Origin: Cafeteria roenbergensis
Lineage: Eukaryota > Sar > Bigyra > Bicosoecida > Cafeteriaceae
Direction of reading: 5' to 3'
Length of the DNA: 40,395 nucleotides
Assembly (NCBI GenBank): GCA_008330645.1
Contig: VLTN01000107.1
Location: forward strand, 1 to 40,395
Part shown: in pieces, positions 5,684-31,062 of the stretch
How the letters are laid out: the number at the start of each line of letters is the position of its first letter
Numbering within the stretch: position 1 is the stretch's first letter
The notes under the pieces: generated by a model
The model's database searches: none
What the model was told of the DNA's origin: nothing
Seen by the model: the letters and a program-made list of their open reading frames with translations, nothing else
Program-made: the position numbers and the translations under genes

Positions 5684-6455
5684 ATGGCCACCCCTGCTAT
5701 GGATGGAAATGCATTGGCAAGCGGGCTCTGGGAGGCGGCGAAGGCCGGGAGCACTGCCGAGGCCGGCAGGCTGCTCGATGAGGGCGCGCCAGTGAACTGG
5801 AAAAACGCTGCAGCCGTGAGCGCTGAGGCTGTTGGCATGCTCCCCACTCGCTGACGAGGGGATGAGGTCCAGTACAACCAGCAAGTTGTCTTTGTACCTC
5901 TTGTTAGGCTGCTGCACCACGGACCGCGCGGGGAAGCATGCGGGACAGTCTGGGGCGCGACGGTGATCGGGGCAGCAGCATTGCGACGTGGGCGCCGGTG
6001 GGCAGCTAGCTGCAGGTGTCGCCGATCGCATGCCGAGAGGGTTGTGGTTGTGGAAGGCACGTGGCCTCGCAGCATGGTCGGACGGCGCTGATCATGGCGG
6101 CATGGCGTTGCCGCAGGGACATGGCGGAGTTGCTGCTGGACCGCGGCGCCGACCTGGAGGCCAAGGACAGGGTGAGCCGGGCAAGGTTGCTGTTTTGAGG
6201 GCGGACCGCGCGCGGGCGTTATGGGCGGGCCGCGGACCGCGTTAGCGATGAGGAGCGATGTCATGGGGTGCTGGGTGGCAAGCGAGTGGGTCGCTGAATG
6301 TGGCGTCAGCGGCCTCGTGTTGGAGGTGTGCTTGTTGACGCCACATGACCTCGCAGCGTGGTCGGACCGCACTGATCCTGGCGGCATGGCGTGGCGACAA
6401 GGACACTGTGGAGCTGCTGCTGGACCGCGGCGCCGACCTGGAAGCCAAGGACAGG
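5684..6455 (+). CDS. Ankyrin-repeat protein, 5' part: exons 5684-5815, 6073-6171, 6357-6455
   Basis: Exon 1 begins with ATG at 5684 (MATPAMDGNALASGLWEAAK...) and encodes an N-terminal capping ankyrin helix pair ending ...EGAPVNWKNAAA, followed by the donor GTGAGC at 5816. Exons 2 and 3 are each exactly 99 bp and 33 codons. They follow CTCGCAG acceptors and end at GTGAGC (6172) and GTGGGT (6456). Each reads as one ankyrin repeat: HGRTALIMAAW...ELLLDRGADLEAKDR and RGRTALILAAW...DRGADLEAKDR. All introns are phase 0 (257 and 185 bp). Ankyrin repeats bind other proteins; the partner is unknown. Intron 3 begins at 6456 and at about 6509 runs into LINE sequence. The next ankyrin exon lies at 29087. 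Upstream, 5563-5683 shows no clear TATA box. An alternative in-frame ATG is at 5699. Confidence 0.75.
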
Positions 6456-6509
6456 GTGGGTCGGCAAGGCTGCTGGTTTGAGGGCGGACCGCGGGCGGGC
6501 GTTAATGGT

Positions 6510-6650
6510 GAACATCGTTGGGGGGGGTCGAAAACTCGCGTAACCATGCCACACACTCGATTCACAGACTCAGCAATCACCAATCCAGCAACTCCATCAC
6601 CGATGAGTCACAAACCGCGCCAAACCCACACTCCCAAGTCCCAGATTAGG
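6510..6650 (-). mobile_element. LINE 3'-UTR fragment, no coding sequence
   Basis: This 141-bp stretch has the shared LINE 3' terminus (TGAACATCGTTGGGGGGGGT on the plus strand) and the first part of the 3' UTR, then breaks at CCAGATTA. It is followed at once by the same terminus again at 6652, the 3' end of copy B. It is therefore a severely 5'-truncated insertion, or a duplicated end, next to copy B, and lies inside the ankyrin intron. Confidence 0.75.
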
Positions 6651-6651
6651 T

Positions 6652-9600
6652 GAACATCGTTGGGGGGGGTCAAAAGCTCGCAAAACCATACCACACACTC
6701 GATTCACAGACTCACCAATCACCAATCCAGCAACTCCATCACCGATGAATCACAAACCGCGCCAAACCCACAATCCCAAGTCTCAAATCCCAGATCCCTG
6801 CCATCACACTGCCTCGAGTCACCACTCAGCCGCCCCTGCTCACCGCATACGCTCCACCTGCTGCCGCAGGTACTGCGTCTGCCCGATCAGCTGGGTCGCC
6901 AGTCCCTTGGCGATGACCTCGTTCAGCCTCGACAGCCAGCGGAAGGCCCAGCGCGCACGCTCCCTCGGCCGATCACCGAAGGCCGTGTCCGCCACCTTCT
7001 TGAGGAAGGCGAAGGCCGCCGGTCCCATGCGTCCCGTGGTCGTGATGACGAAGGGCACAATGGAGCTCAAGTTGTCCTTTGTAGCTGAGCTCTTCTTGTA
7101 CTCCCTCATCTTGTCATTCTCACGGCGCTCGAGAAAGGCGTCCATGTTCTGCAGGCCCTGCGTCACGTAGGACTTGCTCACCGCCGAGGTGATCTGCACG
7201 TCGACGAGACAGGTGGTCTCGAAGTCGACGTGCACCCGCAGGTCCGGTCGCTTGCGCGCGGCCTCGCTGGACCCCGGCTGGGACCCGAAGCGCGTCTGCC
7301 CGTCCTGCCAGCTGGAGGGCTCCACCACCGACTGTAGCCCCGCCGAGCGCACCGCCGCGTGCAGGACGTCGCGAACGTCGTTGTGCGCCCGGATGGTGGA
7401 GCCCTTGCCGCAGCGGCAGCGCGCCAGGTGATGTGCCACGCCCGAGACCCCGCCGATGTGGACGGTGCCTCTCGCGGTGGTGTCTCGCTGCATGCACGCG
7501 CAGTTGATCGACACGCCGTCTGGCACCACGTGGTCAGCCTCGGAGGCTCCGATGCGGTAGCGGGTGACCACCGCGAACTCCTCGTCTGTGAGCCCGCGGG
7601 GTCCCATCATCGTGTTGCGGAGCCAGTAGTGCGTTCCCGGCACGCACGCCTCTCGGAACGCGACCAGGTCGCTCATGACGCGCAGCATGGCCGGGTCGTC
7701 GATGTTGGCGACACGCTTCTCCGGCGTGCCCTTGGCCAGCGCCTCGGCCCTGCAGCGTGCTGTGCAGGCCCTGCGCGCCTTGGCCAGACGGCGCAGGAAG
7801 ACACACTCGTGCTTGATGCGCAGCATGTCGTCGTGGTGCAGCACCATCTTGCGCTGCCAGGGCGCCTCGGTCTGCTCGTTCGCCCGCGCTGTCACCCCGT
7901 CGCCGTACAGGCACTTGCGGAGCTTGGCCTTCAGCTCGCCCGGCAGCTTACCCAGGGTGTCGGGCAAGAAGCCCTCGAACCCTGTCGCTGCGGCCAGGCA
8001 GCGGGCTCCCTTGCAGGCCCTGATGAACTCCTCCACCAGGTTTGCAGTTGCCTCCATGTCATCCGACGACTCGTCGTCAGATCTGAGCTCCATCATCGCC
8101 TCCAGCGCCAGCTCCTCGATCTCGGCGCGCAGCTCTTCCAGGCCCTCGACAGCCCCCGCGATGTCCGACCTCCACACATGCGCCAGCTGGTAGCGCTTCT
8201 TCACCCTGGCGGCATGAAGGTCGGCCTCCTTGCCCACGACGCAGTCCTTGTCCGGCCTGAAGTACCGTGCCTCGGTGCAGGCGTCCTTGTACTCCTTGCT
8301 GTCCCGCTCGTAGTCCCGGTAGGCTCCCTTGGCGACCTCCTCGCATCGCAGCAGGATGTCGCCCACCTCCTTGGTCGCATCGCTGCGGTCTGAGCGCTTC
8401 AGCGCCCGCATCACGAGTTTCTTGAGCGAGATGCCCTTCCAGTTGGGGTCGTTGCCGTCCGCGTCCGCGTCGGGTCCGTCCCTGGCCAACCCGATCGCCG
8501 GCGTTCGCCTGACCGAGTAGACCTGTGCCGCATCCGCTCTCGGCTGTGCGGCATCAGATGTCTCTTGGCCGGTTGGAGCGCCAGCCGCACTAGCTGCCGC
8601 TGCGCCGCCGCCGCTCGTCGTCATCTCGGTCGCCGCTCCCGCCGCGCTGGCGGCAGCCGCACCTCCGCCGACCGTCTGGCCTCCGCTTGTCGGTGTTGGC
8701 TGATGCCCCGGTTCAGCCGCTCCCCCCGTACCGCTGACGAGCCAGCCGTCCAGCGTACCTGCAAGCTGCTGCCCGTGCGCCGGCCCCTCCTCGCAGTCCT
8801 CCTTGGACTCGCTCTCTCCGACCGCCGGGTGGTCCACCCACGGCGTGCCGCCCGCTGCAGCAGCCGCCGCACCCGACTCATCCTCCGCTTCCGCCTCGCC
8901 GGCGTTGGCTGGTCCCGCTCCGGCACCACTCCCCGACGCCGGCTCTCCTCCGCCTCCACCAGTGCCGGGTCCGTCGAGGGCCTCCTCCGGCGGTGGTGCC
9001 ATCTCGAACCGCCCTTTCCGCATGTCCCGAACGGCCTCGATGAAGCCCGCTGTCGCCTCGAAGCGGAACTGCGCCACGCCAGGCAGGCCCATGCCCCCGG
9101 CTTTGCAGCCCTTGCTCAGCATCTTTGCCAGCCTCATCTGAGCGTAGCCTCCCTTCTTCAAGGCCGGGTTGGACGCTGCCGATGCGAGCCGAGTCACACC
9201 GTCGGCTTCCCGGCCCAGGAGCGCCCACCACGCCTCCCGCCTTGCGTGCTCGTCCGGCAGCCCCCGAACAAGCGCCTCGATGGCCTTGGACATGGCCTCA
9301 CGGAAGCCGTCCTCGGTCACCGTGCACATCTCGTCCGAGAGCGCGTGGCCGATCGCATCCAGCTCCGTCTTGTGCGCCACTGCCGACAGGTTGGCCAGCA
9401 GCGCCGCATGGAACACCGCCAGCTCCTGGCCCGCCGCCGCACCCGCTGCTCTGTGCAGGTAGCTGAACTTCTGGCCCACCACTGACAGCAGTAGGTGGTG
9501 CGCCCGCTTGAGCCCGCAGACCTCGATGCCCGCGAGCAGGCGTTCCGCCGCCGGCCCGAACTCCTTCTCTAGTCGCTTCATCGAGTGCTCAAGTGCCACC

Positions 9601-12600
9601 TCCGGCGAGAGGTCCTCCCCCACAGGACACTGCAGCACCGCCACGCTCCGTTCGGTGAGGTGGCACCCCTCCAGCACCGAGGGTGGGGACCCTGGATCGT
9701 CCCTACTCCGCTTCATCTCCCGCCGAATTCTGGCTTTGGTTCTCCTCGCGCTGTCCTCGCTTGCACAGCACCTGGGTCTTGTCGGCGTTCATCCGCAGCC
9801 CCACCGTGCTGAGCCGCTCGGCCAGCATCTGGGCTGCCTTGAAGGCGCTCCTCCTCGGGCCCACGAGCGTCGTGTCGTCGGCCATCTGCAAGATGAGCAC
9901 ATCTGGGAAGGCGCGCCTCACCTCGTCCACCAGGGGGTGCACTGCGATCGCAAACAGTGCGCCCGCTGCCGGGTCGCCTTGACGCACGCCCCTGTTGGAC
10001 TTCAGCTCAAAGACCTCGCCCTCGTCCGTGGCAAAGAGGAGCGGGCTGGACGAGCCGTACAGCGCCAGCACCGCCGGCACGAGCTTCTCGTCCAACCGCC
10101 GCACCTCCTCGATCATCGCGCGCCTGGAGACGGAGTTGTAGGCGTTGGCCATGTCCAACGCTACCACCACCGTTCTGATCTCCTCCCTCCTCGAACGCGG
10201 TGCGGACAGCATGGACCAGCCTGCACGACCCGTCTCGGCAGCCCAGGAACTGGAAGCGCAGCTGGTCCAGCAGTCCGTGCTTCCCCAGGATGGTGTTCAC
10301 CACCTTGCCCACCAGCTTGCCCAGGCCCGAGACCATGGCCACCGGCCTGATCTTGCCGTTGCCCTTGGGAATCGCCATCAGGGTTGACGACCCGAGGACC
10401 CTGCGCTCCTCGGCAGAGAGGTCGTTCCTCAACGCCCTTCGGACAAATGACACGAGCGCATCCAGGTCCTTCTCGGCGATGTTCTCCAGCTGCTTCGCGA
10501 CCATGCCGTCCGGGCCCACGGCCTTCTTGTGCGGCATCGACTGAATCGCCGCCGACACCATTTCCCGGAGCTCGGAGTCGGTGAGGTCCGGCGCTTCTCC
10601 CTCCACTGTGCCGTCGACCACCTCCTCCTCGCTCGGGTGCAGGCTCATCAACGCCTCCAGCGTCTCCCTGTCCTGCGCGACGGTGCCCGCCGACGCCATG
10701 CTCTTCGCCAGGTCCTTGGCGGAAGTGCCGTTTTGACGCCGCAGATACGCCTTCAGGGCCGCTACCGTGGTGAGCTGCACCCTTATTCCCGCCGCTTGCT
10801 CGACGGTCGGGTGGCCCTCCGCGTTGCCTCTGCGCCCAGCACCCGCCAGGGACGCCGCCGCTGCCATGGTGCCATGCTGTAAGGTGGGCTCGAGCGCCAC
10901 CGGCACGTGCTCGCTCACCGCCTTGCGCTGCCGCAGTTTGTCCGCGGCAAAGGCCTCGCCGAAGGTGCACTGCCGGAGCAGCGCCTTGATGTACCACTGC
11001 ACCCACTTCTTGGAGGGACATCCGTGTCTCAGAAAGGCTCCCTTGGCGAGGCTGTCCGGAGAGCTGGTGGAGCACCGCTTGCACCGCCCGTCCCCACACG
11101 CCCTCTCTCCGTCAGAGAGTGGCGTCTCGTTGCCTCCTGCTTCCGCCATCGCTCCCGTCACGTCCTCCGCGTCATCCCCCTCCAATCCGTGGCTTGCATC
11201 CATGTCCCCCTCCTCGCCCGTCGGTGGCTCCGCTGTCCGGTTCGCTCCGGCCAACTGCCCTGTGACTCCTGCCGCCGCCGGCACCTCCACCTCGAGCTGC
11301 GGCATGGTGCTGTGAACCTGTCCTACACTCGGGTCCCCCGCCGCGTTTGCAGCCGATGGACCCAGCGCTCCGCCAGTTGCGCCAGTCTCCTCCGCCGACT
11401 CGTCCTCCTCCCTACTCGCCTCCTCATCATCCGCCGCCGGGTCATCCTCCACCTCCCCCGATTCACCATTGTCCACCGTCGACCCCTCTCGCTCCGCCCT
11501 GGCTGCGCTGTCGCCCGCCAGCGACCCGTCCTCCTCCTCGACCGAGGCGCCATCATCCTCTGACGTCTCGCTCCTCGGACTCCATCCTCCGTCGTCCATT
11601 GTCTCCTCGACTTGGTCCTGGCTGGCTGCGCTGTCGCCCGTCATCTGCCAGTCCTCCTCCTCACTCGCCTCGCCGTCGTCCTCCGACCCCTCGTCACTGG
11701 CCTCGTCCGTTGTGCCATAGTCCATGGAGCCTCTGGTCTGGCTCCCAGTAGCTTGGCATCCATCCACCAGCCATGCACCAGTGTTCCCATCCGCCGCGTC
11801 CTCACCTCCCGACGCCTCGCTCTCCTCCGCACTCACTGCGTCTTCATCCATTGACGCCCCGTCACAGTCTCCACCAACGACATCATCATCCTCCCCCGAC
11901 CCGTCTTCGTCGTCACCCGACGCGTCCTGAGTCTCCGGTGGCTGGCTCTCCTCCTCCATGGCTGCTCCGCCATCCACCGGCAGTGAATCCTCACGTGCGC
12001 CGGCACCTCCGATCTGCCCACCGTTTCCCCGGTTGGGGCTTCTGGTCGCGGCAGCCTCGTCGCCGTCCGAGTCATCGTCGTCCTGGTCCGAGTCCTGCTG
12101 CCTGCGCGGAACCACTGGCTGCGGTCGCCTCTCGGTGACCTCCCGGGCAAGCATCTGCGCCACGTTTGACTTGTCTTGGCTAAGCGCCACTGTTAGGCCT
12201 GCGGCTCCGGCCAGCTGACGCAATTGGGCGTCGGAAAAGTTGTCCTGGAGCGCCACTGCGGTCAGGCCGCCTCTTTGGGCCAAGTCTTGCAGCATCTGGG
12301 GTGCTGTCATGCTGTTCACAGTCACTCGTTTTGTGTTCTCCAGTCTGGCTTTTCTGGCCAGGTAGCCCCTGAGAATCGCTGAAGGATTGAGATGGCTCTC
12401 AGTTCCGCAGTTTGCGGCGCGGCTCCTGGCAGAGCCGGCAAGGAGACGCTGCGTGCCGGGACTGCAAGCGCTGACGAGCACCCGTCCGGGACCCACAGCT
12501 GTGCGCCTCTGGCCACACGCGGTCGCGCGCCCCTCGGTCCGCCCGTCCACACGCCTCTCAGAACGCCCGGCCGTGGTCCTCCGGGCCCCCGCAGCCGCCC

Positions 12601-12611
12601 TTCCTCCGGTA
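6652..12611 (-). mobile_element. LINE copy B: longest copy, with N-terminal region
   Basis: On the minus strand this copy runs from the 72-bp repeat array through a long ORF region to a 3' UTR of about 190 bp, ending at the G8 tract. It is the only copy here that carries the region upstream of the point where copies C and D are truncated (N-terminal acidic domain and Cys cluster). The 5' limit is not defined by comparison; I placed it at the edge of the 72-bp array. An RLE-type LINE of this kind nicks its target and primes cDNA synthesis from the nick. Confidence 0.75.
6840..12310 (-). pseudogene. LINE polyprotein, copy B: acidic N-terminus, RT, linker, zinc motif, restriction-like endonuclease; two frameshifts
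   Basis: Proposed start is ATG at 12310 (MTAPQMLQDLAQ). Order: a short SAP-like helix-turn region (QLRQLAGAAGL), about 270 residues rich in Asp/Glu, a Cys cluster (CGDGRCKRC), then RT with AVGPDG, IPKGNGKIRPVA, motif A ALDMANAYNSV, motif B GVRQGDP, motif C MADD and NADKTQVL. After RT come a thumb-like region, an Ala/Gly/Glu-rich linker, CxC...HH...C, and the endonuclease (K-R-P-D, D 14 residues on, K-x3-Y). Two +1 changes relative to copy C break it: near 10180 (GTTCTGATCTCC for GTTTTGGCTCC) inside motif A, and near 9740 (GGTTCTCCTC for GGTTTCCTC). The last 958 residues (9716 to 6840) are open. The domain order places it with R2/CRE/NeSL-like LINEs rather than APE-type LINEs. Confidence 0.8.
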
Positions 12612-13490
12612 CGCATTGCCTCGCGCCCTCGGAAACGCGCGGCCGTGTGCCCGTTGGCAGCCTCGACCGCCCGCTCGCCGGAACGCGTTGCCTCGCGCCC
12701 TCGGAAACGCGCGGCCGTGTGCCCGTTGGCAGCCTCGACCGCCCGCTCGCCGGAACGCGTTGCCTCGCGCCCTCGGAAACGCGCGGCCGTGTGCCCGTTG
12801 GCAGCCTCGACCGCCCGCTCGCCGGAACGCGTTGCCTCGCGCCCTCGGAAACGCGCGGCCGTGTGCCCGTTGGCAGCCTCGACCGCCCGCTCGCCGGAAC
12901 GCGTTGCCTCGCGCCCTCGGAAACGCGCGGCCGTGTGCCCGTTGGCAGCCTCGACCGCCCGCTCGCCGGAACGCGTTGCCTCGCGCCCTCGGAAACGCGC
13001 GCGGCCGTGTGCCCGTTGGCAGCCTCGACCGCCCGCTCGCCGGAACGCGTTGCCTCGCGCCCTCGGAAACGCGCGGCCGTGTGCCCGTTGGCAGCCTCGA
13101 CCGCCCGCTCGCCGGAACGCGTTGCCTCGCGCCCTCGGAAACGCGCGGCCGTGTGCCCGTTGGCAGCCTCGACCGCCCGCTCGCCGGAACGCGTTGCCTC
13201 GCGCCCTCGGAAACGCGCGGCCGTGTGCCCGTTGGCAGCCTCGACCGCCCGCTCGCCGGAACGCGTTGCCTCGCGCCCTCGGAAACGCGCGGCCGTGTGC
13301 CCGTTGGCAGCCTCGACCGCCCGCTCGCCGGAACGCGTTGCCTCGCGCCCTCGGAACCGCGCGGCCCGTGTGCCCGTTGGCAGCGCTCGACCGCCCGCTC
13401 GCCGGAACGCGTTGCCTCGCGCCCTCGGAAACGCGCGGCCGTGTGTGCCCGTTGGCAGCTCTTCGACCGCTCATCGCTCGCCGGAACGCG
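12612..13490. repeat. 72-bp minisatellite, about 12 units
   Basis: The unit begins CCTCGCGCCCTCGGAAACGC and ends CGCTCGCCGGAACGCGTTG. Units start about every 72 bp from 12619; most are identical. The unit ending near 13003 has an extra GC, and the last two or three (from about 13340) carry small indels. 72 is a multiple of three, so in minus-strand reading it encodes a 24-residue Arg/Gly/Ala repeat without stops, but nothing suggests this is selected. It lies directly 5' of LINE copy B. Confidence 0.9.
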
Positions 13491-14110
13491 TTGGCCCTGC
13501 GCGACCCTCGGATCTGCACGTCGACGAGACGGCCGTGTGCCCGTTGGCGCGCGGCCTCGCTGGCCTCGACCGCCAGCGCTCGCCGCCGAACGCGTTCGCG
13601 GACGTCGCGCCCTCTTGGCAAACGCCACGCCGAGACCCCGCCGATGTGTGCCTCTCCGTCCCGCTGGCACGCCAGTTGATCGACCGCCGTCCGCGTGGTC
13701 GCCTCGGAGGCTCCGATGCGGTAGCGTTGACCACCGCGAACTCCTCGTCTGTGAGCCCGCGCGGGTCCCATCATCGTGTTGCGGAGCCAGTAGTGCGTTC
13801 CCGGCACGCACGCCTCTCGGAACGCGACCAGGTCGCTCATGACGCGCAGCATGGCCGGGTCGTCGATGTTGGCGACGCGTGCCCTTGGCCAGCGCCTCGG
13901 CCCTGCAGCGTGCTGTGCAGGCCTGCGCGCCTTGGCCAGACGGCGCAGGAAGACACACTCGTGCTTGATGCGCAGCATGTCGTCGCACCATCTTGCGGCC
14001 GGAACGCATGTCGCCTCGCGCCCTCGGAAACGCGCGTGTGCGCCGTTGCGCCGTACGCAGGCAGCTTCGAGCTTGGCCTTCAGCTCGCCCGGCAGCTTAC
14101 CCGCGTGTCG
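13491..14110 (-). other. Scrambled patch: LINE 3' coding sequence interleaved with 72-bp repeat words
   Basis: Aligned by eye with copy D (17629-18430), the order of LINE words is kept, but segments are missing and replaced by pieces of the 72-bp unit. GATCTGCACGTCGACGAGAC (LINE) is followed by GGCCGTGTGCCCGTTGGC (repeat), then GCGCGGCCTCGCTGG (LINE), CCTCGACCGCC (repeat), and further on GAGACCCCGCCGATGTG (LINE). Near 14005 a near-complete half unit (GCCTCGCGCCCTCGGAAACG) sits inside the LINE. The zinc and endonuclease core of copy C is destroyed here. Confidence 0.7.
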
Positions 14111-21457: not shown

Positions 21458-22221
21458 TCCAGCAACTCCATCACCGATGAGTCACAAACCGCGCCAAACC
21501 CACAATCCCAAGTCTCAAGTCCCAGATCACTCCCATCACACTGCCACGAGTCGCCACTCAGCCGCCCCTGCTCACCGCATACGCTCCACCTGCTGCCGCA
21601 GGTACTGCGTCTGCCCGATCAGCTGGGTCGCCAGTCCCTTGGCGATGACCTCGTTCAGCCTCGACAGCCAGCGGAAGGCCCAGCGCGCACGCTCCCTCGG
21701 CCGGTCACCAAAGGCCGTGTCCGCCACCTTCTTGAGGAAGGCGAAGGCCGCTGGTCCCATGCGTCCCGTGGTCGTGATGACGAAGGGCACAATGGAGCTC
21801 ATGTTGTCCTTTGTAGCTGAGCTCTTCTTGTACTCCCTCATCTTGTCATTCTCACGGCGCTCGAGAAAGGCGTCCATGCTCTGCAGGCCCTGCGTCACGT
21901 AGGACTTGCTCACCGCCGAGGTGATCTGCACGTCGACGAGACAGGTGGTCTCGAAGTCGACGTGCACCCGCAGGTCCGGTCGCTTGCGCGCGGCCTCGCT
22001 GGACCCCGGCTGGGACCCGAAGCGCGTCTGCCCGTCCTGCCAGCTGGAGGGCTCCACCACCGACTGTAGCCCCGCCGAGCGCACCGCCGCGTGCAGGACG
22101 TCGCGGACGTCGTTGTGCGCCCGGATGGTGGAGCCCTTGCCGCAGCGGCAGCGCGCCAGGTGATGTGCCACGCCCGAGACCCCGCCGATGTGGACGGTGC
22201 CTCTCGCGGTGGTGTCCCGCT
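21382..22221 (-). mobile_element. LINE copy E: 3' part only, cut by the tyrosine-recombinase element
   Basis: It has the 3' terminus with G8, the 3' UTR and the last 215 or so codons. Homology to copies B and D ends at CCGCTG (22221), where intact copies continue into CA(T/C)GCACGCG. From there the sequence is the outer end of the tyrosine-recombinase retrotransposon. The missing 5' side of copy E is not found at the other end of that element. Confidence 0.8.
21572..22221 (-). pseudogene. LINE endonuclease-domain fragment, copy E
   Basis: The minus-strand frame retains the second part of the zinc motif (AHHLARCRCGKG), the R-P-D...D core and K-x3-Y, and ends at the common stop (21572-21574). 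A substitution turns DNLSS into DNMSS. The frame stays open upstream to 22447 through the split repeat of the neighbouring element, giving a chimeric 291-residue ORF. I regard the extra residues as accidental. Confidence 0.7.
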
Positions 22222-22750
22222 GTCCGGCAACGCCTCCGATTCGCCCTGGTGCGTGTGATCGTAGGGAATGGTGATCACGCATCCAGCAGTGGCCAAATGG
22301 GCACCTGTTAGGTGTCCGGCGCCAGCAGGCTAGGAGTGGCAGTGCCTTGCTCGGAGTCTGCACCCACAGGGGCACTGAAACCTCGCAAGCCACCTCCCAG
22401 CCTGCCGCGGGATGGGCGGGCGGGTCACGAATGCGGCTTGCTCTCACACAACCTCAAAGCCGACCGCAACGGGCCCTGGAGTGCTGTGCGAGCGTTCGCA
22501 CGGCACGGCGGGCAAAGCGAAGCGCACGCTGCGCGCGCCTTGCCGGCGAGCTGCTTGTCTTGGCCGCCGACGCAGGCGGGTAGACCAGAGCTCGGGACCC
22601 TCTGAGTCACGCCGAGGGCAGCCCCCAGCACGCTGTGGGGGAGCCGCGTAGCCCAAGAGAGTGTCGTGACGATGCCAGATGGGCTCGTCTGTTTTTGTCG
22701 GGGTAGAATCTACGTCTGCGGACAAATATGAACCCAACCGGTTACCGAAC
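22222..22750 (-). repeat. Joined split repeat (A2-B2) of the tyrosine-recombinase element
   Basis: 529 bp. The part 22222-22406 repeats at 22752-22936 (start GTCCGGCAACGCCTCCGATT). The part 22418-22750 repeats at 28753-29084 (end GAACCCAACCGGTTACCGAAC on the plus strand). Eleven bases (22407-22417) join the two parts. It differs from the other A copy by a few single-base indels (for example GGCTTGC against GGCTTTGC). The same 529-bp block occurs alone at 31489-32016 in the opposite orientation. Confidence 0.9.
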
Positions 22751-22751
22751 T

Positions 22752-22936
22752 GTCCGGCAACGCCTCCGATTCGCCCTGGTGCGTGTGATCGTAGGGAATG
22801 GTGATCACGCATCCAGCAGTGGCCAAATGGGCACCTGTTAGGTGTCCGGCGCCAGCAGGCTAGGAGTGGCAGTGCCTTGCTCGGAGTCTGCACCCACAGG
22901 GGCACTGAAACCTCGCAAGCCACCTCCCAGCCTGCC
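22752..22936 (-). repeat. Split direct repeat, part B1
   Basis: 185 bp, matching 22222-22406. It is separated from A2 by a single T at 22751 (CCGAAC-T-GTCCGG), which marks the likely recombination junction used by the circle. Homology ends at CCTGCC, after which the sequence runs toward the recombinase stop codon at 23079. Confidence 0.9.
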
Positions 22937-23078
22937 TCCGCGCCACCCATTGATTGAATGGCCACTGGGCACCCTCCGTAGAACAAGGTTGAGGGTACGG
23001 AGAAGGGTGCCGCGTGCCGCTGCCTGCCGGGACGGGAGGTGCGGCACGCCGGAGCGGCGAGGAGGTTGCGCCTGTGGG

Positions 23079-24194
23079 TCAGAAATGGTGTCGTCCCCCG
23101 GTCGCATCCTCCTCGCGTAAGAGAAACGGTGCGTTCTCTCTGATGTATGAGACTACACTGGCAGGATTGTGCCATCGTCCCAGGCTTGCGATGCGTATGA
23201 CTGACGCCTTCCTTGAGGTGTAAAGCCAAGTGGCGCCCGAGATGCGGAAGGCGTGCCCCGTCGTCGGGTGGCCGTCGCGGCGGTGGCGGGTCACCAGCTC
23301 CGCCACCATACGCTTCGTCACCGCAAGCCCCGTCTTGGTCAGCCAAGCGGGACCCGGCCCGCGCCTCGCTCGCGTCCTGACGTATTCGCGCACCAGGAAC
23401 GGGGAGCCGCAGGACGCCGGGTTGTAGAACGCCGAGGCGGGATCCGCCGAGACGGTCACGCGCTCGCCTTTTGGTGACATTTTGTCTTGGATCGTCACCG
23501 AGTACGCCGGCCAGCTTGAACCTTCATGCAGCGTGAGCGCCTGGATTTGGAGTGCTCGACGCCCGGCAGGGCACGCCTCCTCTAACAGGCTGCCGAGGCG
23601 GCAGAGGCCGTCCCAGGCTATCGCACACACCGTCCGAATCGCTAGGTCGGTGTATGGGTCTGACGCCGCAGCCATGATCGTGGAAGGGCCGAAGGGAATG
23701 CGGGCGTCAAACTTGGGCTCGGCCATGCGATTCATGCGCGCCACGATGAGCTTGATGGCCGAGTGCTTGTCCGACATCGGGTCGTCTGCCTCGTCAAAGG
23801 CGAACCGCGCGAACCTTCTCACCGCGAAGAGGTAGCTGACCAGGCTCGACGGGGACAATTCCGTGTCTCCCGCCATTAGCGCCCGGGCGAAGATCGACGC
23901 TGCCGCCAGCGTGATCCGCCCCGAGCGGGGAAACCTCGCGCCCTTTGCTGCGCAGAGCGCTCGCCACGCCCTGACAGCCGCCACCACCGTGGGCCGGCCT
24001 GTTCTAACGTCCGTGAGGGCCAGCATGGCCGCGAACACGTGGGAGTTGCCGTCCCGGTCCAGGACGCTCAGCAGCCGTGTGGCTCGTCCACCGGGACGAC
24101 CGTCGGTGGCAGCACGAGCTTGGGCCACGCAGGCGGCGCAGTCGCGCAGAAAGAGCTCGCAGCCGTCGAAAGACACCTCGTACCCAGCTTCCAC
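23079..24194 (-). CDS. Tyrosine recombinase of the retrotransposon
   Basis: A 371-residue ORF. All catalytic residues of the family are visible: Arg199 (DGLCRLGSLLEE), a candidate Lys238 (IQDKMSPKGE), His314-x-x-Arg317 (GHAFRISGATW), His342 (LGRWHNPAS) and the nucleophile Tyr350 (VVSYIR). The N-terminal 170 residues fit a core-binding domain. It would cut and rejoin the circular cDNA with the target through a Tyr-DNA bond. It is the most downstream ORF and its ATG-delimited reading overlaps the RT ORF by 127 nt in another frame, so its true start may lie within or depend on that overlap. It looks functional as read. Confidence 0.85.
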   Translation of the reverse strand: MEAGYEVSFDGCELFLRDCAACVAQARAATDGRPGGRATRLLSVLDRDGNSHVFAAMLALTDVRTGRPTVVAAVRAWRALCAAKGARFPRSGRITLAAASIFARALMAGDTELSPSSLVSYLFAVRRFARFAFDEADDPMSDKHSAIKLIVARMNRMAEPKFDARIPFGPSTIMAAASDPYTDLAIRTVCAIAWDGLCRLGSLLEEACPAGRRALQIQALTLHEGSSWPAYSVTIQDKMSPKGERVTVSADPASAFYNPASCGSPFLVREYVRTRARRGPGPAWLTKTGLAVTKRMVAELVTRHRRDGHPTTGHAFRISGATWLYTSRKASVIRIASLGRWHNPASVVSYIRENAPFLLREEDATGGRHHF

Positions 24195-25618
24195 AAGGGC
24201 CCCTCGATGGCCACCTGCGGGGAAAGGCGGCTCAGGCGGTCAGCACAGATATTGTCAACGCCAGCGATGTGGCTCGCATCTAGGCGCACCCGGTTGTGCA
24301 GCAGGAACTCGGCAAGCTCCTCGGCCAGGTCATCGGCGTGCCCGGCCGAGAGCGATGCCCGGAACCTTGACGACACAGCCTGAGTGGCCACGTTGTCGGT
24401 CAAGAGGTGCACGGACGTCCCCGCAACTTGGTGCCTGAAGTGCTGGAGCGCACGCGTCGCGGTCAGCAGCTCGGAGCGGGTACTCGATCCAATGTGTTCC
24501 GGCCACTCGAAGCGGGCCACCTGCCATGGAGATCCCGGATCATGCAGGTCTATCAGCACCGCTCCGCCCGCTTGCCCACAGGCGTCTGTGGCAAGCAGAT
24601 ACTTCGGCCTAGGGTCGGGCCCGCGGGCTCGGTCCGCCACGTCCCGGACCCGCACTGAGGGAGATCGGTGGAGCAGCCTGGACAAGGCCTTCGCAGCGCT
24701 CTCCGCTCGGCTTGTCCAGCGAAACCGGCGACGAGGCGCACGTGCCGCCGGAACGATCTCTTGGGCCAGCCGTCGAATCCATGCCTTGATGGGCAGGCAC
24801 AGGCAGGAGAGCCAATAGGCTCGCCCCAGCATCGGTTCGTGGACCGAGACGGAGATGCGACCTCCGGCTCGGACTGAGTCCAGTGCCCCCAAGAGCTTCT
24901 GTAGGGTGGATGGTTTCACCGACACCAGCGTCAGGTCCGATCGGGAGGAGAAGCGCAGCCCCACGTAGTCCGCCACATGGGCTGGGGGTGGGCATTTCTC
25001 CACGGCCACTGGTAAGCCAAGCTGCCCGCAGAGTTCCGCCGCACGATCCCGGTCCGCGCGAGCGCCCGCCTCGTCGCAGGCCGACACCAGCAAGATGTCG
25101 TCCGCGTACACGGCCACCCCCGTGTGGTCCGTGCGCAAGGCGTCTCCTAGCGCTGCCGTGGCTGCGCACAGCGCGGACGCGCTGAATCTCGCACCCATCG
25201 GCAGCGCCACGTTCATAAGGGTGACCTTTCCCGAGGCTATGGTCAGCAGGGGCGTGGCTCCCGCCCCCGCCGACAGCTGTCTGTAGGCGGCCTGGATGTC
25301 CATGGGCGCCAGGAACAAGGGTCCGTTATGCTTGTCCTCCATGTCAGCGATGAGCTGGCACAGCTCCGCGGCCGATGGGACCTTCGGGAACTCGAGGAAC
25401 GATGTGTCTACTCGCGAGTTCACTCCGCGGAGGGCCGCGGGGGCCGCCGATGCTGAGTTGTCCTGGACCATTCGTGCCCGGGGCCGGCCGTCTGCTCCCA
25501 GGCCTGACTTGGGCACCAGCTTACAGGGGGCCGTGCGGCGCAGGAGTTGCTTGGGCCAGTCCGATGGCACTGGCAGCGACCAGCCGCGCGCGACTTCGTC
25601 CGCCAGAGCGCTCTCCAA
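24068..25618 (-). CDS. Reverse transcriptase-RNase H of the tyrosine-recombinase retrotransposon
   Basis: 516 residues from the first ATG. The same frame continues upstream through typical pre-RT sequence (WWKPVRPRGRPPNYRSPGF), so the protein probably begins earlier, near or before 25690. RT: Asp107 in APMDIQAAYRQ, ALPMGARFS (motif B), and YADD at 171-174. RNase H: Asp345 (LLATDACGQAGG), Glu383 (STRSELLTATRAL), Asp408 (LLTDNVATQ) and Asp460 (NICADRLSR). This makes double-stranded cDNA from the element RNA. The family is DIRS-order, with RNase H directly after RT and no protease or DDE integrase. No frameshift or missing catalytic residue is visible. The DIRS-type methyltransferase domain is not evident. 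Confidence 0.85.
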   Translation of the reverse strand: MESALADEVARGWSLPVPSDWPKQLLRRTAPCKLVPKSGLGADGRPRARMVQDNSASAAPAALRGVNSRVDTSFLEFPKVPSAAELCQLIADMEDKHNGPLFLAPMDIQAAYRQLSAGAGATPLLTIASGKVTLMNVALPMGARFSASALCAATAALGDALRTDHTGVAVYADDILLVSACDEAGARADRDRAAELCGQLGLPVAVEKCPPPAHVADYVGLRFSSRSDLTLVSVKPSTLQKLLGALDSVRAGGRISVSVHEPMLGRAYWLSCLCLPIKAWIRRLAQEIVPAARAPRRRFRWTSRAESAAKALSRLLHRSPSVRVRDVADRARGPDPRPKYLLATDACGQAGGAVLIDLHDPGSPWQVARFEWPEHIGSSTRSELLTATRALQHFRHQVAGTSVHLLTDNVATQAVSSRFRASLSAGHADDLAEELAEFLLHNRVRLDASHIAGVDNICADRLSRLSPQVAIEGPLWKLGTRCLSTAASSFCATAPPAWPKLVLPPTVVPVDEPHGC

Positions 25619-26612
25619 CTGCGCCTCCGTGAACCCGGGCGACCGATAGTTGGGTGGACGGCCACGCGGTCGTACTGGTTTCCACCACGGCCGTGTCCGC
25701 GCCGATCAGGGCCGTCGCAAACGGTTCCCGCCAGCGCCGCGATACGGGTCTCAGCAGCTCAAGCACGCTAACTGGGTTAATCCCTCCGGCAGCTCCGTCT
25801 GTTCCCCAGAGGATGGGGTGCGCCGCCAGAGCAGTGTGGAGAAACCCGTCCGACGCTGCCGCCCCGGGGTCCAGTGCTACCGCGTTACGCGCAGCATCGA
25901 CTGCTTGCTGCAGCACCCCAGAGGCACGCAGGCGCTCCAAGGCCGCCCGCAGCTGATGCGGCGCTACCCGTTCGGGGTCCATCCCTATCAGTGAAAGAAG
26001 CCGCCGCGCCCGTTGGTATTGACGCAGGCCCGTCTCATCCGAAGCGGCCCATATCCGCCCCGTCGCTGAGCGCACCTGCCGCTTCGGACGCGGGGGGTCG
26101 TACCGATGGCGAAGGGCGCGTAGGTACCGCCTCGCCAGCTCCAGCGTCGGCAACGGTTGGTCCCGTGCCGGCGCCGGAGCCCAGCGCGCAGCTCTGTAGC
26201 CCTCGGTCCGCGGCGTGAAGGTGGTCGTGAGCCGGTTGCCGCGGCGGCGACGCCTTCCGCCCGCACCTGGGTTCCGCCCCCGCCCCCGCCGTTTGTTCTT
26301 TCGGCTGGGCCATCTCCGCCTCCGTCGTTCCTTCTTGCGCTGCCGCGGCCCGGGCCGCCACGCGTCGGGAAAGAACGGGGGGGCTGCAGGGTCTAGCCGC
26401 GAGAGGTCCGGCCTCCACCGTTCAGGACGCTGTCGGCTTCCCACCTGCGGCGGTTCCGCGTCGGTCACGTCGTCCCCCGACCTCAGACCCCGCCGCGATG
26501 GAGGGCCATGAGGCCTGAGCCAGACGTGACCGTGCAGAGCCCGATCACGCCGTCCCTGTTGGCTCAGGCCTCGGGAAAACCCAGTCCGAGCCGCTGGCGG
26601 AGCAACGCCCAC
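25521..26612 (-). CDS. Basic ORF between gag-like region and RT; probable N-terminal part of RT protein or end of gag
   Basis: 363 codons. The first half is very basic (runs such as KKERRRRRWPSRKNKRRGRG), which suggests nucleic-acid binding or nuclear targeting. The second half has a regular helical pattern (QLRAALERLRASGVL, then VDAARNAVALD and VLELLRPVSRRW). Its last part overlaps the pre-RT sequence in another frame near 25680, where VVETSTTAW gives way to WWKPVRPRG. A frameshift there, programmed or accidental, would fuse it to RT. No named domain recognised. Confidence 0.5.
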   Translation of the reverse strand: MGVAPPAARTGFSRGLSQQGRRDRALHGHVWLRPHGPPSRRGLRSGDDVTDAEPPQVGSRQRPERWRPDLSRLDPAAPPFFPDAWRPGPRQRKKERRRRRWPSRKNKRRGRGRNPGAGGRRRRRGNRLTTTFTPRTEGYRAARWAPAPARDQPLPTLELARRYLRALRHRYDPPRPKRQVRSATGRIWAASDETGLRQYQRARRLLSLIGMDPERVAPHQLRAALERLRASGVLQQAVDAARNAVALDPGAAASDGFLHTALAAHPILWGTDGAAGGINPVSVLELLRPVSRRWREPFATALIGADTAVVETSTTAWPSTQLSVARVHGGAVGERSGGRSRARLVAASAIGLAQATPAPHGPL

Positions 26613-27488
26613 GTGTCTGCGGGCGATCCCGGAGGGTCGTCACCCAGCCCAAGCGCGCCAGCAATTGCTTCCGCCAGCGCGTTCGCCGTCAGGCCTCCTT
26701 TGAGCACATGTGCCATCTTGCCCTCTGCCAGAGCAGGGATCAGCATTGGGAGGCCGCCCCGACGCCCCCGTGCGCCGCCACAAGGACGACATGAAGTCCG
26801 ATGGCGACATTCCGAGCAGCGCTGTGAACTGCCCCGTCAGCGAGGAAGAGGGCTTCTTCTGCCGCCGCGGCTGCGCGGACGTTGCTTTTGTCGCCGGAGC
26901 GGACGGTGCCGCCGCCCCCGCAGCGAGTGCGGCCTGGCGGGGCGCCGCCCGGCCTCGTCGCTCCGCCGTGGGCCGGGCCCGGCGCGCCTCTCGCCGGTCT
27001 GCATACCGGAGGACTCGGTCGTGAACCCGCGGACCCGAGCCCCGAAGGGCGGGTCGGGGCATGAGCTCTGCGTCTGGAAGAGCTTCGTCCAGCAGGAGCC
27101 GCAGCTCAGCTCCCTCTCCGTCCGCGGGGTCCACCAGCGCCACTGCCGTTGCCGCCAGGACAACGGCAAATGCGGCCGGGCCCACTGGGATGCCTGCCGT
27201 TCGCCAGTCAAACGCCGAGGCGGCCACGGCTGTGACAGCTGCACGCAGCGCCGCCTCGGAATCCGATGCCCAGAGGTACTCCAGGGCTTCGACCGTCACT
27301 GACCACGGGTGCTCTTGGATCTCCTGCGCCAGCAGGTGCTTAGTCTTTGTCCGCTGCGCCGCCAGCGTTGCCAGCGCCGCGACGAACAAGTCCTGTACCC
27401 GCTTGATCGGGGGTGGCGCGCCCGCTGCTACCCAGGCAGCTGCCACAGCGTGGAGCTGGTCCTCGACCGCCGTCCGGAAGCCGCCCAC
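26564..27488 (-). CDS. Gag-like ORF, second segment, with a probable frame change near 26760
   Basis: From 27488 (MGGFRTAVEDQLHAVAAAW) the frame is Ala-rich and helical, with no recognised domain. The nominal frame ends at 26640, but from about 26760 coding character (Leu/Ala helices, e.g. EGKMAHVLKGGLTANALAEA) moves to a neighbouring frame that ends at 26564. The upstream frame also stays open beyond 27488 toward the end of the preceding ORF (STCVLRAAVEAAARAE), so the two segments may be one gag-like protein read across a frame change. Assignment rests on position before RT only. Confidence 0.45.
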
Positions 27489-27558
27489 CGGGGAAGGGGA
27501 GGGCGGAGTTTCGGCCCTCGCGGCCGCCTCGACCGCCGCGCGAAGGACGCATGTGGAA

Positions 27559-28746
27559 TCAGCAAGGGGCGAGGTCTCGAGAAGCGTCGTTGACCACGCT
27601 CTCAGGGACGCTCGTTATGCCAACGCCAGTCGCGACTGCAACGAGCGCCGCCATCTTCGGCGAGGGCACGTGGAGGAGTCCCGTCAGGTAAGCAAGGGTC
27701 CCTGCATCTGCCAAGCAAGATTTCAGCTCACCTGTTGTTCGGGGTGGTCGCGCCGGTGACGCGATTTCTCGCCAGATGCCTCCTTCGGCCCGCGCGGCCG
27801 GCCAGGGGTCCATTTCGTTGTCCAGGTCCCTCCGTGGGGTGAGCGCAAACGGTGAGTGCGCGGCCAGTGCCTCGCGCGCAGGCTCAGGCGGTCTCACCGA
27901 GTGAGCAGGCGAGGCCGGCAGGTCCTGCCGCGTCGCGTCGTGTCCCAGCAGTCTGCTCCGGGCAAGTTCCGCGACGGTCGCTGTCGTGCGGGCGAGGTCC
28001 ACGTCGGCGGGCACCTCATCGATGGTCCCGCCCTCTGTGAGGAGCGCATGCCCGATGGCCGCATGGAGTACGAGCCGCACGCGTTTCGCAACCTCGTCGG
28101 ACTGTGCTCGCGACACGGCTTTGCAGGCCACTGTGGCCAGCACGTCGCAACAGTCGGCCGCGCTGTCGAATGACTGCCCCACAGGCGGCTGCGCGAGCGC
28201 AGCGAAGCCCGCCGTCAGGTCCGCTGCGATGGGACCCTGCCCTGCCGAGTGGGTGAGGGAAACCGTGACGGCGCGAACCTGCATCGTGACGACGTCGCCA
28301 TAGAGCTCTGCCGACAACGACCGCTCGGGAGCTGCGCGCGCTCGCGACCCTGTCTCGGCCGCTGAGGCCCGCGTTGCCGCCGCGGACGGCGCCGCTGCGA
28401 CCCCCGCCCCCGCCAGCCCACGCTCCCGTGTGCGTGGGGGCGCAGAGGGGCGTGCGGTGCGCGGGGTTTCGCTCCGTGCCGCTTTGGGAAGGTGCAGCTG
28501 ATCCATGACGTGAAGGATCTTGACTAGCCAGCCGACACGCGTAAGCCTGCCCGCCCGCTGAAAATGACGGCCCAGCTCGGGCCATGTGCTAAGTATGGCG
28601 TCGGCACTGCCCTCGCCCAGGCATTCGTCCGCCGTGAAGAGGGCCGGGCGCGGCGCCGCGGCCGAGGCGGCCGCCGCCGAGTTCTGCGCTAGTGGCAGTT
28701 TCGCGACCGCCTCGTCCAGGGAAATGTCAAGGGGAGCCTCGTCCAT
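27559..28746 (-). CDS. Gag-like ORF, first segment, of the tyrosine-recombinase retrotransposon
   Basis: 395 codons starting with ATG at 28746, seven bases inside the A1 repeat, which fits the first ORF of such an element. Acidic N-terminus (MDEAPLDISLDEAVAKLPL), a short conserved-looking segment (RHFQRAGRLTRVGWLVKIL), a Pro/Ala/Arg-rich middle, then a helical region with two Cys (AADCCDVLATVACKAV). No CCHC knuckle is visible. I call it gag-like by position and composition, not by homology. It ends at 27559 close to the next segment in another frame. Confidence 0.5.
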   Translation of the reverse strand: MDEAPLDISLDEAVAKLPLAQNSAAAASAAAPRPALFTADECLGEGSADAILSTWPELGRHFQRAGRLTRVGWLVKILHVMDQLHLPKAARSETPRTARPSAPPRTRERGLAGAGVAAAPSAAATRASAAETGSRARAAPERSLSAELYGDVVTMQVRAVTVSLTHSAGQGPIAADLTAGFAALAQPPVGQSFDSAADCCDVLATVACKAVSRAQSDEVAKRVRLVLHAAIGHALLTEGGTIDEVPADVDLARTTATVAELARSRLLGHDATRQDLPASPAHSVRPPEPAREALAAHSPFALTPRRDLDNEMDPWPAARAEGGIWREIASPARPPRTTGELKSCLADAGTLAYLTGLLHVPSPKMAALVAVATGVGITSVPESVVNDASRDLAPC

Positions 28747-28752
28747 AGCTCG

Positions 28753-29084
28753 GGGCGGGTCACGAATGCGGCTTTGCTCTCACACAACCTCAAAGCCGAC
28801 CGCAACGGGCCCTGGAGTGCTGTGCGAGCGTTCGCACGGCACGGCGGGCAAAGCGAAGCGCACGCTGCGCGCGCCTTGCCGGCGAGCTGCTTGTCTTGGC
28901 CGCCGACGCAGGCGGGTAGACCAGAGCTCGGGACCCTCCGAGTCACGCCGAGGGCAGCCCCCAGCACGCCGTGGGGGAGCCGCGTAGCCCAAGAGAGTGT
29001 CGTGACGATGCCAGATGGCTCGTCTGTTTTGTCGGGGTAGAATCTACGTCTGCGGACAAATATGAACCCAACCGGTTACCGAAC
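28753..29084 (-). repeat. Split direct repeat, part A1
   Basis: 332 bp matching 22418-22750. The outer end is AACCCAACCGGTTACCGAAC at 29084. The next two bases (AG) and an ankyrin exon follow. As the 5' end of the element on the minus strand, it would have to hold the promoter, but I see no clear TATA motif. Confidence 0.88.
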
Positions 29085-29086
29085 AG

Positions 29087-31062
29087 AGTGGCGCAACGGC
29101 GGTCTTGCGGGCGGCATGGGAAGGCCACAGGGACACAGTGAAGCTGCTGTTAGACCGCGGCGCCGACCCTGAGACCAGCAACCGCGTGAGTGCGACGGCG
29201 GTGCGTGTTGTGCGTCGGGCTCGCGAACGGCGTGACAGGCGTGGTACAGTTGTTATATAGTGCAAAATATAAGACCAGACCGTAACAACAGTGAAGTATC
29301 ATACTTTGCACAAAAGCAAAGCGAGTCGGGACCCCGATGGCGATGAGCCGTTGAGGCGCAGTGCTCCTGTCGCGAGCCGGCGTGTGAGGCGGCGTTGATG
29401 CCGGGATGTATCGGGGAGAGCGATGGTGTGACGAGGCGAGGTGTGGTGCGGGTTTGCGATCTCGCAGTATGGCGAAGCGTTGATTATTCTCGCCGCTCAG
29501 CGAGGCCACAGGGACATGGTGGAGCTGCTGCTGGACCGCGGTGCCGACCTGGAGGCCAAAGATAACGTGAGTGCGGCAACGGTGCGTGATGCGCGACGGG
29601 ACCCTGGCAGGCATGGCGGGTAGGCCAGGAACCGCGATGGCGATGAGCCGTCGGGGCGTCGTGTTCCCGTCGCGGGACTGCGTGTCTGGTGGTGTTGGTG
29701 TCGGGTTGACTGGAACGCAGTGATGGTCCGATGACTTGTCGCGATGAGTGGGCGTGCAACCGTGCAGGACGCCGCAACGGCGCTTTTTCGGGCTGTGGCA
29801 TTTGGCCACAGGGCCACGGTGAAGCTGCTGGTGGACCGGGGCGCCGACCTGGAGGCCAAGGACTGCGTGAGTGCAGGGACGGTGTGTGCTGCGCGGCGAA
29901 ATGCGGAGTGTGGACTGGACGGGCCTGGACGGGAGGCGGCGCTGGGGGGAATGTCTGGAGGGGAGCGAGGGTGCGACGATGTGTGGTCTGATGCGGGCAT
30001 GCGACGTCGCAGTATAGCGAAGTGGTGCTTATTCGGGCTGCGGCATGTGGCCACGCGGACATGGTGAAGCTGCTGCTGGACCGGGGCGCAGACCTGGAGG
30101 CCAAGAACAGCGCGAGTGCGGTGATGGTGTGTGCTGCGCAGCGAACGGCGGCGTCCGCGACCAGCCGGCCAGGGACCGCGATGGTGATGAGCCGTCGGAG
30201 CACCCTGCTCCTGTAGCGGGTCGGCGTGTGAGGCGGCGTGGGTGTCGGGACTTCTGGAGGGCAGCGTGGGTGCGACGCGGCGAGGTGTGGCGCGGGCATT
30301 CGACCCTGCAGTTTGGTGCCACATCGCTCGACCGGGCTGCATTGCGAGGCCACAAGGAAACGGTGGAGCTGCTGCTGGACCGCGGCGCCGACCCGGAGGC
30401 CAAGGACCACGTGAGTGCGGTTTCGCTGCCTGCTGCGCAACGGGTCCGCAAGGGCGACACCGGCCGGCCAGGGACCGCGTTGGAGATGACGCGTCAGGGC
30501 GTTGTGCTCCTGTGGCGGGCCGGCGTGGGAGGTGGCGCTGGCGGGGGGGCATGCCGGTATGGTTGCGATTGTGCGACGAGGTGGTGTGACATGCGGGCCT
30601 GCAGTACGACAAAACGGCGGTGATCAAGGCGGCGATAGCAGGCCACAAGGACACGATGGAGCTGCTGCTGGACCGTGGCGCGGATCTAGATGCCAAGGAC
30701 CACGTGAGTGCGGTTTCGATGTGTGCTGCGCGGCGGACCGCGAAGGCAACGCCGCCGGCGTGGGGATCGCGATGGTGATGAGCCGTTGCGGCGCCTTGCT
30801 CCTGTCGCGAGCCGGCGTGCGAGGCGACGTTGGTGTCGGGACGTCTGCGGCGGCAGTGGTGGTGTGAAAGCGTGTGGTGATGAGGGAGCATGCGGTCTCG
30901 CAGAGTGGGAACACGGCGCTACTCGTGGCAGCAGACCGTGGCCACAAGGACACGGTTGAGCTACTGCTGGACCGGGGCGCCGACCTCGAGGCCAAGAACT
31001 CTGTGAAACCCAAGAGGTCGCTCAGTTTGCAATGCCTTTGGCTGACCGGTGACATCAAGTGA
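29087..31062 (+). CDS. Ankyrin-repeat protein, 3' part: seven exons, one repeat each
   Basis: Exons: 29087-29185, 29468-29566, 29768-29866, 30013-30111, 30312-30410, 30605-30703 (each exactly 99 bp, phase 0) and terminal 30904-31062 with stop TGA. Each encodes one ankyrin repeat ending LLLDRGADLEAK or close to it, for example YGEALIILAAQRGHRDMVEL and SGNTALLVAADRGHKDTVEL. Donors are GTGAGT, except GCGAGT after 30111 (a GC-AG intron); acceptors are CAG. Introns are 146-282 bp and visibly related to each other (shared GTGAGTGCG start and a GATGAGCCGT word), so exon plus intron duplicated as a unit of 245-381 bp, mostly about 300. The last exon adds a short basic tail (VKPKRSLSLQ). There is no start codon on this side; joined to 5684-6455 it gives about 360 residues. 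Role: protein binding, partner unknown. Confidence 0.8.
29234..29322. repeat. AT-rich hairpin-forming insertion in an ankyrin intron
   Basis: About 90 bp with far lower GC than its surroundings, and without counterpart in the sister introns. Inverted arms GTTGTTA (29249-29255) / TAACAAC (29283-29289) and GTGCAAAATATA (29260-29271) / CATACTTTGCAC (29300-29311, two mismatches) overlap rather than nest, so they allow alternative hairpins. It could be a small MITE-like insertion. Neither target duplication nor a second copy was found. Confidence 0.4.

Follow-up and report, generated by a model that had tools for sequence, protein, structure and literature searches.

Dozens of one-exon-one-repeat ankyrin arrays in the genome of Cafeteria, and probable parts of two of them on a single contig

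Ankyrin exons in the window

The stretch of DNA analysed here, the window, is 40,395 nucleotides long and makes up the whole of contig VLTN01000107.1 (C107), one of 167 contigs in a genome assembly of 36,303,456 bp (GCA_008330645.1); other C-numbers below denote contigs of the same assembly. It was deposited under Cafeteria roenbergensis, and the source is almost certainly the species now called Cafeteria burkhardae, formerly C. roenbergensis; the assembly contains a single exact match to a published C. burkhardae primer. On the plus strand the window carries ten ankyrin-encoding exons, E1 to E10, that lie in two groups, here referred to as the putative left and right genes, with retroelements between them. 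We think it likely that these groups are pieces of two members of a family of exon-intron ankyrin units, that the units recombine, and that selection has diversified the binding face of their products. The exons are as follows.

5684..5815, plus strand: E1, first exon of the left gene fragment, with start codon and N-terminal capping half-repeat (132 bp, 44 codons); C39 has an equivalent
6073..6171, plus strand: E2, 99-bp ankyrin exon of the left gene
6357..6455, plus strand: E3, 99-bp ankyrin exon of the left gene, whose intron is interrupted at about 6508 by a long interspersed nuclear element (LINE)
29087..29185, plus strand: E4, 99-bp ankyrin exon of the right gene, its original acceptor reduced to AG beside the end of an Ngaro-like retroelement
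29468..29566, plus strand: E5, 99-bp ankyrin exon of the right gene
29768..29866, plus strand: E6, 99-bp ankyrin exon of the right gene
30013..30111, plus strand: E7, 99-bp ankyrin exon of the right gene, followed by a GC-AG intron
30312..30410, plus strand: E8, 99-bp ankyrin exon of the right gene
30605..30703, plus strand: E9, 99-bp ankyrin exon of the right gene
30904..31062, plus strand: E10, terminal exon, with an ankyrin repeat, a lost donor (GTGAAA), a short tail and a stop codon

Each of E2 to E9 is preceded by AG and followed by GT (GC in the case of E7), is in phase 0, and encodes 33 residues that make up one ankyrin repeat. The initial annotation had described eight internal exons of exactly this kind, and all eight borders held when checked in the window. 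The window has 11 plus-strand and 9 minus-strand matches to the pattern of AG, 99 open bases and GTGAG, GTAAG or GCGAG, with a mean of 3.85 in base-pair shuffles; when an ankyrin-like core is added to the pattern, seven matches are found on the plus strand, none on the minus strand and a mean of 0.0 in 20 shuffles, indicating that chance is no explanation for these exons. The introns are likewise related to one another, as had been proposed for the right side of the locus, and this is seen both among the units of the window and among arrays taken from other contigs.

A genome-wide family of arrays

DNA searches of the same genome returned at least 199 and at least 287 matches, and the genome holds dozens of ankyrin arrays in which one exon encodes one repeat. 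In the regions retrieved, 258 unit matches could be resolved, with some loci represented by more than one copy, and 243 of these matches are exactly 99 bp, with a stop codon in one of the 243; one of 225 unit matches, located at a locus edge, was left unresolved and dropped. The 15 exons of other lengths are found on C114 (five), C129 (three), C36 and C88 (two each), and C20, C51 and C10 (one each), and two of them are cut by the end of a locus or contig. The longest arrays contain 24 (C74), 21 (C14) and 19 (C20) units, and the unit period is mostly about 284-318 bp. Across 196 introns, a set that includes units of C4 and of the window, the median length is 207 bp, the donor is GTGAGT in 140 and the acceptor TCGCAG in 156, and 121 contain an in-frame stop.

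A first exon of the E1 kind was found in 13 of the 21 stretches searched. At the other end, 10 arrays close with a unit whose donor is replaced by GTGA[A/T], and the frame continues to a stop codon, often through a similar tail. A typical member would be read as a first exon, a variable number of phase-0 99-bp ankyrin exons, each followed by an intron that is related to the others and measures about 200 bp, and a terminal exon that usually lacks a donor. When the exons of the gene on C36 are joined, with E8 taken from the window, the product scores over the Pfam cut-off for PF12796, PF00023 and PF13637, and its sequence relatives in PDB are ankyrin-1 and designed ankyrin repeat proteins.

Ankyrin matches of a different form were seen by eye on C28, C26, C45, C46, C48, C86, C126 and C162, where they lie in long intronless frames, spaced about 102 bp (34 residues) apart, perhaps representing a second array family; those on C26, C28 and C45 are near LINE copies. 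Also by eye, a frame of near-identical tandem repeats of about 42 residues, resembling the tetratricopeptide repeat (TPR), lies near position 182001 of C55 (L038), just upstream of an ankyrin array.

Diversity across the repeat unit

Diversity within arrays was measured in 14 array groups of at least five units each, using 191 of the 258 unit matches, one of which has no array mate. The set leaves out the copies L022, L024 and L036, the window units E2 and E3 (the same as those of C39), a stray match in L034, six divergent units of C4, exons that are not 99 bp, and units with no downstream intron; its label C10 merges two arrays. The mean within-array difference is 0.153 for introns and 0.162 for third positions of framework codons, and the two are statistically alike (Wilcoxon p 0.33). 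First and second positions of the framework differ by a mean of 0.081, below the introns in 14 of 14 groups, whereas the same positions of codons 33, 1, 3, 11 and 12 differ by 0.454, above the introns in 14 of 14 groups (Wilcoxon p 1.2e-4); these five codons also differ from the other 28 (p 1.2e-4), both p-values being descriptive and not from a blind test, given that the set was chosen post hoc. Among nearest pairs (136), dN/dS is 1.21 in the five codons and 0.49 in the framework, a contrast weakened by codons in which several bases change.

Ranked by first and second base, the seven most variable codons are 8, 1, 12, 11, 33, 32 and 3, codon 8 having a mean within-array difference of 0.506. 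Codons 1, 3, 11, 12 and 33, the contact codons, presumably match those that are randomised when designed ankyrin libraries are built, with 8 and 32 outside that set. To judge from known ankyrin structures, the most variable codons sit where ankyrin proteins usually touch their targets. Selection would keep the ankyrin framework and drive change on the face that contacts the target.

Two other accounts of this pattern were weighed. If the arrays were decaying subtelomeric sequence that spreads with LINEs and drifts free of selection, one would expect the frameshifts and the one stop that are present in some copies, the truncation of arrays by LINEs, and the position of arrays at contig ends. 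However, 242 of the 243 99-bp exons are free of stops, and framework first and second positions differ on average about half as much as introns, and less in every one of the 14 groups, with contact codons at about three times the introns; we therefore regard unselected decay as distinctly improbable. Alternatively, the variable codons could be a hotspot of mutation or conversion, for example through short-tract conversion of codon blocks, and not the target of selection. Several bases often change within one contact codon, the units are mosaics, and third positions are raised in contact codons (0.347 as opposed to 0.162 in the framework), all as a hotspot would predict. Against this, four-fold sites of contact codons (0.219) are nearer the framework level (0.155), and codons 1, 8, 12 and 15 mostly keep their third base while the first two vary, making a hotspot an unlikely explanation. 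Targeted hypermutation of contact codons was rejected on the same four-fold sites; given that these lie near the framework level, point mutation together with selection suffices.

Duplication and turnover of units

The proposal that exon and intron duplicated together as one unit is well borne out by the regular periods, by arrays of up to 24 units, and by introns that are alike within an array. For the 191 units, the nearest neighbour lies in the same array for 147 introns, 112 sets of contact codons and 97 exon frameworks, and adjacent units are barely more alike than distant ones, save in C20 and C43. Units are also mosaics, because pairs with near-identical exons have introns that are 5.9% apart. 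In 45 pairs with near-identical introns, exons differ about 13 times more than expected (9.9 as opposed to 0.77 per 99 bp), a figure not used as proof since, when pairs are chosen the other way round, it is the introns that have diverged and not the exons.

From the similarity within arrays and the mosaic make-up of units we infer recombination: the exon with its intron would be duplicated, lost and exchanged through unequal recombination. As a unit contributes 33 phase-0 codons, the frame survives a change in unit number. Variation in that number had been inferred in the initial annotation, and for related copies a difference in unit content is supported, with caveats. The left gene has three internal units on C39 but two in the window, and C10 and C129, whose flanks are 99.1% and 98.2% alike, have their units in a different order starting with unit 10, with the caveat that C129 is corrupted beyond unit 10 and its unit count is unsafe there. 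On the other hand, the gene containing E4 to E10 has the same set of seven units on C36, C107 and C114, apart from small indels in the C36 and C114 copies.

Two probable genes and the retroelements between them

The elements between and beyond the two exon groups are as follows.

6508..22219, minus strand: tract of LINE copies, with an open reading frame (ORF) at 19736-21457 that matches RVT_1, and with 3' ends toward the left gene
22220..29084, minus strand: Ngaro-like retroelement with split direct repeats (B2A2 at 22220-22749, B1 at 22750-22936, A1 at about 28753-29084)
24068-25618: reverse transcriptase/RNase H ORF of the Ngaro-like element
31493..32015, minus strand: solo AB repeat of the Ngaro-like element, within the downstream LINE remnant (borders by eye)

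The initial annotation proposed a single gene across 5684-31062, which would require an intron of 22.6 kb filled with transposons. Both exon groups are in phase and on one strand, the AG acceptor is kept at E4, and the contig links them. Comparison with other contigs argues the other way. E1 to E3 and their flank match C39 at 99.6% identity across 2.37 kb, and the C39 copy holds one extra 99-bp unit before its own LINE begins. E4 to E10 belong to a stretch of 10.5 kb that is 99.0% identical to C36, where the Ngaro element sits within an intron and is preceded by a first exon and a first unit other than those of E1 to E3. With the Ngaro element removed, that intron is 200 bp and ends in the usual TCGCAG, the insertion point falling between TCGC and AG. 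To the left of the element, the window has LINE sequence and C36 has an ankyrin intron, and the unit period is 284 bp for the left exons but mostly about 300 bp for the right ones. The tract at 6508-22219 is not a normal intron, the single-gene model is very improbable, and the window, as compared with its sister sequences, probably contains parts of two genes. A LINE seems to have truncated one gene and an Ngaro element to have entered another, with ectopic recombination or misassembly at repeats then joining the two across the 22.6-kb stretch. Our guess is that truncated arrays such as the left gene are broken ends healed by LINEs.

Only AG (29085-29086) stands between the end of the Ngaro-like element and E4, so that the rest of the acceptor context now comes from the element. 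The split direct repeats, in the arrangement A1-[ORFs]-B1A2B2, are seen as 22438-22682 against 28774-29018 (99%) and 22220-22406 against 22750-22936 (100%). In a profile scan its ORF scored above the cut-off for RT_RNaseH and below those for RVT_1 and RT_RNaseH_2. The element resembles Ngaro retroelements in both its split direct repeats and its reverse transcriptase/RNase H, and Ngaro elements with split direct repeats, as well as solo AB repeats, are known from C. burkhardae (PMC8547959). Inside the LINE tract, about 12 tandem copies of a 72-bp repeat occupy 12606-13512. The head-to-tail LINE copies at 17089-21382 and 21383-22219 recur about every 4.29 kb, each after the same truncated 5' sequence, an arrangement that we take to resemble telomere-associated LINE tracts. 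Finally, 32772-40395 consists of a unit of about 2.79 kb in three tandem copies, of which the third, at the contig end, is rich in small indels, suggesting a poor consensus there.

Location at contig ends

Among the matches listed, 33 array places lie on contigs longer than 100 kb (a further nine contigs with matches are shorter and do not enter the count), and 25 of them are within 20 kb of a contig end, where 3.6 would be expected; the direction of transcription is toward that end in all 25. On C43 and on C68, arrays that are neighbours count as one place, and the places at the end of C12 and on C45 match the first exon only (23 of 31 without those two). LINE orientation was scored for 40 of 264 candidates. 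Contigs with a known length above 100 kb, C107 left out, have 15 LINE matches, and the 3' side of every one faces inward, which we take to be how LINEs are oriented when they add to chromosome ends. LINEs lie within about 2 kb of arrays on C68, C39, C74, C17, C45 and C31. The arrays near contig ends are probably subtelomeric, a location that would favour array turnover.

It is also conceivable that the clustering is an artefact in which the assembly breaks within LINE tracts located by coincidence 3' of arrays. By eye, several contigs begin in LINE and some finish in array sequence, and no run of three TTAGGG was found in the whole 36.3-Mb assembly. Nevertheless, C8 and C31 bear outward-pointing arrays at both ends, and the inward orientation of the LINE 3' side is uniform at left and right ends alike, which leaves an artefact somewhat unlikely.

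Predicted function

The product of an array is most likely an intracellular solenoid binder with no enzymatic domain, as predicted from its repeats. No match to NB-ARC was found in the genome, and the single NACHT match (C2:1115110) lies far from the array at the start of C2; NLR-type partners were sought beside the arrays and not found. Given the lack of NB-ARC matches and a lone NACHT away from the arrays, they do not look like NLRs. In the joined C36 protein only ankyrin-type families were matched, with neither ROC-COR nor NB-ARC among them (the genome was not searched for ROC-COR), and by eye the longest upstream frames of 11 stretches include no common gene. The family plausibly provides diversified binding specificities for intruders, prey components or starvation signalling. 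C. burkhardae hosts both a giant virus and a virophage. In strain E4-10, the genes raised in stationary phase show a mild enrichment in ankyrin repeats (log2 0.75, adjusted p 0.026; PMC7852580), a result that concerns the ankyrin class and does not place array genes among those raised. Recognition is the likeliest reading of the function, at perhaps an even chance.

Several points count against the interpretation as a whole. The splice borders come from sequence and not from transcripts, and 47 of the 196 introns are open and frame-keeping, such that retention would not always break the frame. The model of the terminal exon misses six arrays, the last unit found retaining GTGAGT in C12, C51 and C79, and GTGAGC in C10 (274k), C129 and C14. 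A 1-bp deletion in the C36 copy of E8 (L022 9341-9438) and a stop codon in one minus-strand unit of C52 (L047) may mean that some genes have decayed or that the assembly is wrong. With regard to selection, first and second positions of contact codons exceed their own third positions in just 9 of 14 groups, the contact set was taken from designed ankyrins and fixed once the codon entropies were known, and codons 7, 8, 15 and 32 were excluded from the framework set owing to their variability. Excesses between pairs of units partly reflect how the pairs were chosen, leaving the unconditioned means to carry the claim of selection. The clustering at contig ends could derive from assembly breaks in LINEs, and it is only from the features above that we infer a role in recognition.

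Comparison with known systems

In their working, the arrays appear closest to exon arrays of leucine-rich repeats (LRRs) and TPRs in brown algae, and in their chromosome-end and LINE setting they would be like the LRR arrays of Tetrahymena. In the ROCO (LRR) and NB-ARC-TPR candidate immune receptors of brown algae, every repeat has its own exon, of constant length and phase; the exons are shuffled, sites on the concave face are under positive selection, and alternative splicing is reported (PMC11378527). The Cafeteria arrays are similarly from a stramenopile and have one repeat per exon of set length and phase (243 of 258 units); they appear to share the diversification of the concave face, as judged here by diversity relative to introns. 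They differ in being ankyrin repeats in 99-bp phase-0 exons, whereas the brown-algal receptors have LRRs or TPRs, 72-bp phase-2 exons (ROCO) and a fused GTPase or NB-ARC domain. Brown-algal receptors were reportedly also studied by Zambounis 2012 and Teng 2023, as cited in PMC11378527.

The LRR arrays of Tetrahymena are made of equal 90-bp phase-2 exons, for which unequal crossing over has been proposed, and young LRR genes lie near pericentromeres and subtelomeres beside LINE-like elements; in the part of the text available, Ka/Ks is discussed and the phrase "positive selection" does not occur (PMC6564038). Common to both are a protist host, exactly equal exons and uniform intron phase, and the difference is that between a ciliate with 90-bp phase-2 LRR exons and Cafeteria with 99-bp phase-0 ankyrin exons. 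The repeat type places the Cafeteria arrays outside both the brown-algal and the Tetrahymena systems, and the lack of an NTPase domain also places them outside the former.

Ankyrin repeats of fungal NLRs show positive selection mostly on the concave face (with one exception) and polymorphism in repeat number, and concerted evolution has been suggested for NLRs with internally conserved ANK, TPR or WD repeats; the words exon and intron do not occur in the available main text (PMC4986451). In those proteins the repeats follow a NACHT or NB-ARC domain, which was not seen with the Cafeteria arrays. PRDM9 has near-identical tandem zinc fingers with positively selected contact residues (PMC5120217), and would resemble the arrays in both respects but differs in that its fingers bind DNA. 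Designed ankyrin repeat proteins combine 33-residue repeats, a fixed framework and variable contact positions (PMC8683736). These are engineered, and in Cafeteria codons 8 and 32 vary in addition. In vertebrate ankyrin genes such as ANK1, exon borders coincide with single repeats, and the repeats are old and diverged.

Among the matches listed in a literature search, no title or start of an abstract describes a family of exon-ankyrin arrays, and the word ankyrin does not occur in the available main text of two papers on C. burkhardae (PMC6972860, PMC8547959); PMC7852580 mentions it a single time, for the stationary-phase enrichment given above. Exons with one LRR (or TPR) each were known from brown algae and equal LRR exons from Tetrahymena; the Cafeteria arrays add an ankyrin version in a single-celled stramenopile, which suggests that exon-sized repeat cassettes have been adopted more than once. 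With four sequenced strains (VLTL, VLTM, VLTN, VLTO) and published RNA-seq (PRJEB36247) of the species, turnover, splicing and selection are directly testable. More speculatively, and rather unlikely as a complete account, the arrays may be a predator's chromosome-end repertoire of ankyrin binders, in which exons act as paratope cassettes that are reshuffled when arrays recombine with one another, and perhaps also through exon choice in splicing, with LINEs driving truncation and renewal. If this is true, they would be an intracellular counterpart of the candidate immune receptors of brown algae, directed for example against the load of giant virus and virophage.

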